From positions 2,356,001 through 2,420,000 of the forward strand of contig NZ_CP015519.1 of NCBI RefSeq assembly GCF_001887775.1: 64,000 bases of DNA, read 5' to 3'. This document shows positions 33,504 through 55,342 of this stretch, piece after piece (position 1 is the first letter of the stretch; each line of letters begins with the position of its first letter). The translations under genes and the position numbers were made by a program. A model generated the notes under the pieces. That model searched no databases. It worked only from the letters and a program-made list of their open reading frames with translations, and had not been told where the DNA came from. Source of the stretch: Syntrophotalea acetylenivorans. Its GTDB lineage: Bacteria; Desulfobacterota; Desulfuromonadia; Desulfuromonadales; Syntrophotaleaceae.

Positions 33504-34148
33504 ATGAAATTCTTTATCGATACTGCTGATGTAGATGAAATTCGCACTGCCCATGAAATGGGCCTGGTTGACGGAGTAACCACCAACCCATCACTGGTTG
33601 CCAAAAGCGGTCGGGACTTTAAAGAGGTCATCACCGAAATTACTACTATTGTTGATGGTCCCATTTCCGCTGAAGTGGTGGCTCTCGATGCGCCGGGCAT
33701 GATCGATGAAGCGCGGGAGCTGGTCAAGATTCATCCCAATATTGTGGTTAAAGTTCCGATGACCGCCGAGGGCCTGAAGGCTACTCGCACTCTGGCAGAC
33801 GAGGGCGTCAACATTAACGTAACATTGGTCTTTTCGCCGATTCAGGCCCTGCTGGCCGCCAAGGCGGGAGCAGCCTATATCTCTCCTTTCGTCGGTCGTC
33901 TTGACGATGTCGGTCATGATGGAATGGAAGGGATCGAGCAGATCCGCACCATCCTCGACAATTACGGTTTCGCTTCGGAGATTATCGTTGCTTCAGTGCG
34001 CAGTCCGTTGCATGTTCTTAATGCCGGCCTGATAGGCGCCGATATTTGCACCATCCCCTTTGGAGTCCTGCAGCAACTGGTCAAACATCCCCTGACCGAT
34101 GTCGGTATAGAGCGTTTTCTCGCCGATTGGGAAAAAGTCCCCAAGTGA
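33504..34148 (+). CDS. Transaldolase / fructose-6-phosphate aldolase-like
   Basis: 214-residue short transaldolase (TalC/Fsa class). [29 protein letters not shown] is the family opening; the Schiff-base lysine is in [30 protein letters not shown] and [10 protein letters not shown] are conserved. Length agrees with decameric enzymes. It belongs to the non-oxidative pentose phosphate route together with rpe at 41.4 kb. Its stop codon is the first base group of a hairpin repeat (34148-34270). Confidence 0.92.
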
Positions 34149-34270
34149 TGGCGGCGCAAAAAGTCCGCCCTACTGTGTTGCAGCACTTTTTCAGGAATTC
34201 GACATACTGATGTATGCTTTCACCCCTGAAAAACTACTACGCCTTGTAGGTCGAAATTTTTGCTTAGCCC
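34148..34270 (+). repeat. Hairpin repeat family R1, copy A
   Basis: Starts ATGGCGGCGCAAAAAGTCC inside the TGA of the transaldolase gene and ends TTTTTGCTTAGCCC. Left arm GCAAAAAGTCCG... pairs with right arm ...GAAATTTTTGC; the centre has GACATAC, a short spacer, then GTATGC. Three more copies, in the same orientation, lie at 53453, 53598 and 55170. Confidence 0.88.
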
Positions 34271-34324
34271 TCTCGTGGGGTTTTGCGAAATATTTAGGTG
34301 ACTCTGTTTTAGGAAGAGGGCTGC

Positions 34325-52309: not shown

Positions 52310-52846
52310 ATGGGTCGGTCCCCCAAAATTCTTTTTCCATTGACCGTTTTTTACGATGGTAACTGCCCCGTCTGCTCGCGGGAGATTTTTCACTACCGGC
52401 CCTTGAATCGAGCCGGCCGGCTTGACTTTATCGATATCAGCGCGCCTTCCTTTGATGCAGCAGCTCGGGGACTGGATCAGGCGGCGTTGATGAAGGCCAT
52501 GCATGTGCAGGATGCCGCGGGCCGTCTTTACCTGGGGGTAGATGCCTTTCGTGCCCTGTGGTTGGGGCTTCCCGGACTTCGTTATCGGTGCCTGAGCCAA
52601 TTGCTCGGCTTGCCGGGCGTGCACCTGTTGGCGGTTCTCGGTTACCGGGTTTTTGCCCGGTTTCGCCACCTGCTTCCCCGCCGTTGCCGCGGGATGAATA
52701 ACGGGGTTGCTATTTTGTCGCCCCCGTCGGTGAAAAGACGTGAATTCATTGCAATTGCCTGCGGCCTGGGATATCGTGTCGAGCAAGTTGACGGCGGCTT
52801 GAAAGCCGCATTACAAGAGCCAAGGAGCCCGTTAGGTGATCATTAA
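52310..52846 (+). CDS. DCC (DUF393) thiol-disulfide oxidoreductase family protein
   Basis: 178 residues. [13 protein letters not shown] is the diagnostic DxxCxxC thioredoxin-like motif of the DUF393 family, and a hydrophobic middle ([22 protein letters not shown]) with basic end follows. Function is not established for the family. Overlaps engB by 11 bases, so the two are coupled. Confidence 0.84.
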
Positions 52847-53453
52847 ATCAGCTGATTTTGTTAAGAGCGCCACTCGTCCGGCGAACTATCCGCCAGGCGA
52901 TTTCAAGGAAGTGGCCTTTGCCGGTCGTAGTAACGTAGGGAAGAGCTCCCTGATTAATGTTCTGGTCAACCGCCGCGGTCTGGTCCGGACATCCTCGACT
53001 CCGGGGCGCACTCAGTTGCTTAACTTCTTCGATATTAACGGCGAGTTCTACCTGGTCGATCTACCGGGCTATGGTTTTGCCAAGGTACCTTTAGCGGTGA
53101 AAAAACAGTGGGGCCCAATGGTCCGGACCTATCTGGAAGGTCGGGAGAATCTACGGGCACTATTATTGCTGTTTGATATTCGCAGGGTGCCACAGCAGGA
53201 AGAGATACAACTGCTTGATTGGTTGGAAGAACTTCAGGTTCCGACGATCCCGATTATCACTAAAGTCGATAAAATTACCCGCAGCCGCCGGGAAAGGCAG
53301 ATTCTACCGATTCTTGAAGCCACCGGTTTGCCAAGGGACGCGTTCACTCTCTTTTCCGCCTTGACCCGCGAAGGGCGCGATGAGATCTGGGAACGCATCG
53401 ATGCTGCCCTTGACGATGATGCCCAGCCGGTGTTTGTTGATGAGGATGATTGA
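52836..53453 (+). CDS. engB: Ribosome biogenesis GTP-binding protein EngB/YsxC
   Basis: 205-residue TRAFAC GTPase of large-subunit assembly. G1 [14 protein letters not shown]2/G3 STPGRTQ and DLPGYGFA, and G4 TKVDK are all intact. The GTG at 52836 has AAGGAG eight bases upstream. The last base of its TGA is the first base of repeat R1 copy B. Confidence 0.95.
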
Positions 53454-53577
53454 TGGCGTCGCAAAAATTCCGCCCTACAGCGTTAGGGTGTTTTTTCAGA
53501 GTCTCGACATACTGGTTGTATGTCTTCGCCCCCGAAAAAACACCAGGCCTTGTCGGACGAAATTTTTGCTTAGCCAT
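53453..53577 (+). repeat. Hairpin repeat family R1, copy B
   Basis: Begins ATGGCGTCGCAAAAATTCC within the engB stop and ends AAATTTTTGCTTAGCC. Arms GGTGTTTTTTC and GAAAAAACACC pair perfectly, as do GACATAC and GTATGTC at the centre. The outer arms GCAAAAATT and AATTTTTGC also match. Confidence 0.9.
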
Positions 53578-53597
53578 CCTATGAGTAGGTAAATGTG

Positions 53598-53716
53598 ATG
53601 GCGTCGCAAAATTCCGCACTACGGCGTTAGGTTGTTTTTCAGGATCTCGACATACTGGTTGACTGTCTTAACCCCTGAAAAAACACCAGGCCTTGTTGGC
53701 TGAAATCTTTGCTTAG
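53598..53716 (+). repeat. Hairpin repeat family R1, copy C
   Basis: Directly repeated 20 bases after copy B, starting ATGGCGTCGCAAAATTCC and ending GCTTAGTC. Inner arms GTTTTTCAGG and CCTGAAAAAAC still pair; the central GACATAC/GACTGTC arm has decayed. Sits directly upstream of the SemiSWEET gene. Confidence 0.87.
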
Positions 53717-53762
53717 TCTTTTCTATAAAGTTTTTGCGAATGCATTAAGGTTGAATCAAAGA

Positions 53763-55091: not shown

Positions 55092-55169
55092 AGCAGGCTT
55101 GACGGGCTGCGGACTGAAACGGTAGAGTGACGGCGGCCGGTTCCTCAGAAGCCGGACTCTGCTGCTTGA

Positions 55170-55292
55170 TGGCGTTGCAAAAAGTTCGCCCTACGGCGTT
55201 GCGGCATTTTTTCAAAACCTCGACATACTATGTATGCCGTTGCTCTGAAGAAACACCAGGCCTTGTAGGACAAATTATTTGTTTAGCCATCC
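55170..55292 (+). repeat. Hairpin repeat family R1, copy D
   Basis: Begins ATGGCGTTGCAAAAAGTTCG and ends TTTGTTTAGCCATCC. The central GACATACTATGTATGCC arm pairs, and GGCATTTTTTC faces GAAGAAACACC. It lies between cbiX and cbiET, 79 bases after the cbiX stop. Confidence 0.87.
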
Positions 55293-55342
55293 CTGAGTTT
55301 TGGCGAATGGATCATTGCTTAAACGGCGAAAAAGGAAGAATG

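Follow-up and report, generated by a model that had tools for sequence, protein, structure and literature searches.

The window analysed here is a 64,000-nucleotide stretch of the Syntrophotalea acetylenivorans genome. It holds four copies of a palindromic repeat, which we call R1, starting at positions 34147, 53452, 53597 and 55168. Each copy folds as a single long hairpin with a folding energy between -29.5 and -46 kcal/mol, in agreement with a first-pass annotation of this DNA that had described four long hairpins. That annotation had also placed the starts of copies A and B1 inside the TGA of a transaldolase gene and an engB-like GTPase gene, and both placements hold. Its element of about 120 nt proved to be about 30 nt short at the right end, where the left end recurs further out in inverted form, as TTTTTGCGAATGCATC. 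The two neighbouring copies that it had listed from 53453 and 53598 are both present as hairpins, but they belong to one two-hairpin unit at 53452-53746 rather than to two separate elements. The features are as follows.

33504..34148, + strand: host gene for transaldolase (PF00923), ending in the copy A TGA at 34146-34148
34147..34295, + strand: R1 copy A, full element, with left terminal inverted repeat (TIR) GATGGCGGCGCAAAAA at 34147-34162, hairpin to about 34274 and degenerate right TIR GTTTTGCGAAATATTT at 34280-34295
52836..53453, + strand: host gene for the engB-like GTPase (PF01926), ending in the copy B1 TGA
53452..53580, + strand: R1 copy B1, first hairpin of the two-hairpin unit, whose GA completes the engB TGA at 53451-53453
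53597..53723, + strand: R1 copy B2, second hairpin of the B1-B2 unit
53731..53746, + strand: right TIR TTTTTGCGAATGCATT closing the B1-B2 unit, with an empty site in L242, L243 and L244
55162..55167, + strand: left target duplication CTGCTT of copy C, with its right counterpart TTGCTT at 55315-55320
55168..55313, + strand: R1 copy C, full element, with right TIR TTTTGGCGAATGGATC at 55298-55313

The window also contains a molybdenum/tungsten cofactor riboswitch (RF01055; 27590-27709, - strand), well above cut-off. A terminator-like palindrome pair lies among the duplicated segments 2523-2579/5153-5209 and 28421-28720/30360-30659, and one duplicated segment pair is a 300-nt repeat of 83% identity.

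R1 is dispersed over the whole 3.22-Mb genome. A blastn search with R1 gave 44 places, and a covariance model, built from 31 aligned copies and the long-hairpin structure, gave 67 at a score of at least 60 bits and about 80 with relics, a genome-wide count that bears out the earlier description of a repeat family. Matches on the opposite strand are the same palindromic copies, and each copy was counted once. The interior of R1 is one long hairpin of 129 nt with conserved mismatches; the default RNAalifold consensus contained short local stems only and was superseded by this fold. Changes on both sides were found in 10 of the 44 stem pairs, against a mean of 3.6 in shuffles, and the proportion of paired cells dropped from 92% to about 40% when the partners were slid. 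The 67 to 80 genome copies and this excess of two-sided changes place the hairpin beyond chance. All 67 strong copies are intergenic, with genes called by our own hexamer-based caller at a coding density of 0.83. A search of Rfam gave no match at the gathering threshold, the best weak one being to retron msr (E=7.5), and the phage and plasmid collections searched yielded none. Literature matches to the letters of the R1 motif were, among those listed, all unrelated.

Comparison of the oriented copies located the ends of the element. Beyond GCTTAGCCATC and some 5-10 further bases lies a second right-end motif, TTTTTGCGAATGCATC, which repeats the left end GATGGCGTCGCAAAAA in inverted form. The right end, variable among copies, thus has the inverted left-end sequence twice in tandem, and the outermost pair forms imperfect TIRs of 16 bp (GATGGCGTCGCAAAAA / TTTTTGCGAATGCATC), as MITEs have. 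The full element of about 150 nt thus reads, from left to right, a 6-bp target-site duplication (TSD), GATGGCGTCGCAAAAA, the 129-nt hairpin, TTTTTGCGAATGCATC and the second 6-bp TSD; written as sequence, the ends have the form GATGNNNTCGCAAAAA, with the TSDs outside. When the flanks on the two sides are compared, their agreement shows a sharp maximum at exactly 6 bp (z=7.8; 0 of 2000 shuffled pairings), indicative of a TSD of fixed length. A perfect 6/6 TSD borders 18 of the 29 copies in three other genomes (G008, G023, G028), while it is clear in only 28-33 of 78 copies in the genome under study, the others being degraded. We had also considered TG..CA ends with a TSD of 4 bp, but rejected this reading since a final base other than T appears in the duplication on either side. 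The target site approximates Y|ANNNNT|RR: at insertions away from stop codons, the last TSD position is T in 15/22, the next base a purine in 20/22 and the following one a purine in 18/22.

Empty sites were found in related genomes, namely at the gap between engB and the PQ-loop gene in G002, G003 and G004 and at the copy C site in G004. At the engB gap, the empty sequence GATTGAGGTTGGATCA in G004 compares with the filled arrangement GATTGAGGTT-R1-AAGGTTGGATCA in G001. Copy C is absent from G004 (L245), intact in G001 (L241) and internally deleted in G002 (L242). Judged from the alignment, the engB gap of the window genome seems to have lost six bases after the insertion, which brought the engB stop and the TGA of the element together; copy B1 probably came to lie at the engB stop through this later 6-nt deletion and not by direct insertion.

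Two or three hairpins in tandem occur at 3065093-3065386 and 1258515-1258947, as well as in the window at 53452-53746. The dimer at 3065093/3065237 sits within one outer TSD pair, AGTTTT, which suggests that the pair moved or grew as one unit. Several relics without an interior were also seen among the matches to the TIR, for example a 32-bp left-plus-right fusion (1945513-1945544) and a TSD-flanked remnant at 1719811. In G008 (L297:1693-1816), a palindromic repeat unrelated to R1, TCATTCCCG...GGAATCC, lies between R1-type ends that have a perfect TTCATT duplication, which suggests that such ends can hold cargo of other kinds.

The first-pass annotation had proposed insertion at gene ends, and the genome-wide set upholds this, with a strong enrichment at stop codons. 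Exactly at a stop codon lie 23 of the 67 copies (34%), where a T from the gene and the GA of the element together make TGA. In all ten stop copies with a readable TSD, the joined flanks restore a stop at the same codon (T|AA, T|GA or T|AG), and we conclude that R1 inserts directly behind the T of the stop codon and rebuilds the codon as TGA. Since every stop codon has the form T|RR and R1 starts with GA, such an insertion leaves the protein unchanged. Stop codons fit the general target rule, as the same T|RR preference holds at the non-stop insertions. The preference does not account for their number, because leading-strand T|RR sites, intergenic or at stops, would place 5.7% of copies at stops against the 34% seen (p=9e-13), and weighting by the full target profile lowers the expectation to 1.8%. 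We infer that the remaining excess was left by selection, which explains it most simply, an insertion at a stop being harmless: insertions inside genes would be purged, and stop codons would become over-represented among the survivors. With a target rule and a stop-rebuilding dinucleotide, R1 represents a simple and harmless route for mobile DNA in a gene-dense genome.

We placed the origin and the terminus of replication from the two sign changes of GC skew, at 2.249-2.285 Mb and at about 0.607-0.728 Mb, in 61 sampled stretches. The GATGGC strand of R1 has leading-strand sense, that is, the sense of the lagging-strand template, in 60/67 copies, whereas 65% of genes in the same sampled stretches are co-directional with replication. 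The upstream gene is on the same strand as R1 in 46/67, the 23 stop copies among them. Away from stop codons, 39/44 copies run with replication and only 23/44 with the upstream gene. The single orientation relative to genes that had been noted earlier therefore describes the window, where all four copies run with their neighbours, but not the genome; the non-random position at stops stands, and the one-orientation rule belongs to replication rather than to genes. In G008, G023 and G028, 23 of 29 copies are leading by local skew, a noisy measure in draft genomes, and within contigs of the relatives' drafts neighbouring copies are concordant in 24 cases and discordant in 9.

This orientation bears directly on the idea, also raised in the first-pass annotation, that R1 was recruited as a 3' RNA element or terminator whose transcribed hairpin ends transcription or protects mRNA. 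The position at stop codons and the long, stable hairpin with its compensatory changes would suit such a role. Yet 21/67 copies lie opposite to the upstream gene, and of the 13 with both neighbours on the other strand, 11 still follow replication. Moreover, convergent gaps are not favoured (5/67), and empty sites adjoin intact genes in close relatives. Because the orientation tracks the fork and not transcription, a general 3' RNA role is argued against and we regard it as very improbable, while such a role is possible for some copies.

A polar chromosome signal of the KOPS or Chi kind, with selection keeping one orientation for replication or segregation, would account for an orientation that is about 90% by replichore and chromosome-wide. 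We consider it very unlikely: R1 is absent from relatives in the same family and order, single sites vary between sister species, many copies are decayed or internally deleted, and the TSDs and stop codons would be left unexplained.

Extremely unlikely is single-strand mobility of the "peel and paste" type, in which an enzyme of the IS200/IS605 or RAYT kind would use the lagging-strand template and target TTGAT. The strong replication-strand orientation, the hairpin and a left flank TTGAT resembling the ISDra2 target speak for it, and insertion 3' of TTGAT as in ISDra2 was indeed our first hypothesis, abandoned once the 6-bp duplications appeared. The last flank base, where it is not T, is duplicated on the right as well, and so belongs to the target and not to the element. 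R1 shares with the IS200/IS605 group the lagging-strand-template orientation (60/67), but not the TSD-free insertion 3' of a fixed tetra- or pentanucleotide. The sole Y1 transposase of the genome, a RAYT-like gene (L031; 1504848-1505171), is flanked by its own GGTGTCCCCGGAATTC repeats, which are unrelated to R1, and Y1 enzymes are not known to make a TSD. A RAYT/REP origin was rejected on these two grounds, since R1 neither borders a Y1 gene nor lacks TSDs. Of the earlier suggestion of a REP- or MITE-like mobile hairpin with a matching RAYT-type transposase, only the MITE-like part survives. Integron attC sites were set aside from the letters alone, as R1 has no RYYYAAC/GTTRRRY ends; CGTC-tagged REPs, considered for the CGTC in the R1 left end, were dropped because they measure 20-40 nt (PMC3733652).

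We thus consider it highly likely that R1 is a non-autonomous, MITE-like TIR/TSD transposon of about 150 nt, which spreads as follows. A transposase acting in trans would move the element, probably one of the DDE type, given the TIRs and the fixed-length TSD. Integration would be coupled to the replication fork, from which the leading-strand bias of about 90% may arise rather than from selection on transcription, and the bias could be partly selective. For Tn7 with TnsE, IS608 and ISDra2, insertion orientation likewise follows replication, and further IS families are reported to touch the sliding clamp and to have the same orientation bias (PMC5371812); the mechanism proposed for R1 is drawn from analogy with these elements. 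R1 differs from Tn7 and IS608 in being non-autonomous and in its 6-bp TSD. The TSD of Tn7 is 5 bp, and IS608 is not known to make one. Each R1 copy can be scored against its genes and, independently, against replication, so that the set is a clean natural sample in which to ask whether the fork sets transposon orientation.

A MITE is usually accompanied by an IS whose ends match its own, although the two need not share a genome. A scan of the genome for the R1 TIRs gave 99 places, and those places away from R1 that were read flank no transposase-like open reading frame. The loci read in G008, G023 and G028 likewise held no autonomous partner. Shared sequence beyond one R1 left end turned out to be an inserted IS110-family element and not such a partner. 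An element of this family, or its end, lies inside R1 at CCGCC-CT-AC in G001, G004, G008 and others; the copy in a G004 R1 (L310:325-1317) carries PF01548 and PF02371, and ends were also seen in L308, L309, L314, L316 and L317. The insertion point within the hairpins is fixed, and R1 thus serves IS110 elements of the relatives as a docking site. REPs are docking sites for some IS110 relatives.

R1 is, then, a mobile MITE-like family with two uncommon properties, stop-codon insertion and replication orientation. Like the bacterial MITEs RUP, Correia/NEMIS, ERIC and MITEAba12, it is shorter than 200 bp, non-coding and intergenic, has TIRs and TSDs and can form hairpins in transcripts (PMC2229807, PMC6382973). 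Unlike these MITEs, it combines a 6-bp TSD with ends other than TA, inserts at stop codons and regenerates them, has a duplicated right end and forms dimers inside one TSD pair; its strong replication orientation contrasts with MITEAba12, reported to have no orientation preference. REP/BIME sequences with RAYT, including CGTC- and GTAG-tagged REPs, are similarly dispersed, palindromic and extragenic, with a preference for sites downstream of genes (PMC3733652), but R1 departs from them in its 129-nt hairpin (against 20-40 nt), its TSDs and TIRs, its one replichore orientation and the lack of RAYT association. The Yersinia repeat YPAL/RU-2, of about 168 bp, is also palindromic and mobile, with TSDs and both empty and filled sites (PMC2229807); unlike in R1, its TSDs are of variable length (3-26 bp) and its inverted repeats lie inside the element.

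R1 is patchy across Desulfobacterota. All four genus relatives contain it, as do 19 of the 31 genomes in the relatives set and, under stricter filters, 27 of 247 genomes sampled across the phylum, where some weak cases may represent the second hairpin type described below. Hairpins that share the R1 tip, CTCGACATAC-n-GTATGCCTTCG, but whose stems are unrelated were seen in Clostridia, a spirochaete, a gammaproteobacterial MAG and Chloroflexi MAGs. Loci in the Clostridia, the spirochaete and the gammaproteobacterial MAG are L143, L195, L197, L154, L173, L158, L181, L144, L159 and L131. By our estimate about 9 chance matches of this 19-base pattern are expected in that collection, so single matches mean little; repeated matches in one Clostridia MAG, and the agreement of flanking motifs, do not seem accidental. 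That a fork-coupled, stop-rebuilding family bears in this tip, together with its CCT bulge, a conserved cross-phylum recognition structure, common to hairpin elements of different build and read by a protein, is a tentative proposal, more doubtful than probable. The motif makes the search for a recognising protein concrete.

A second hairpin type has the R1 left end and a different tip, GGCGTACnnnGTACGCCTCATTCCTCG. It lies in the S. acetylenivorans genome at 1723506-1723634 (L092) and 1118320-1118447 (L098), both carrying GGCGTACnnnGTACGCC, and was seen as well at L162:344 and in L306. It resembles a short RNA family of Geobacter metallireducens with the core GRCGTAGCGCTGCTACGCC, which is described only as a predicted RNA family (PMC2700814), and the shared core motif points to a possible relationship between the two.
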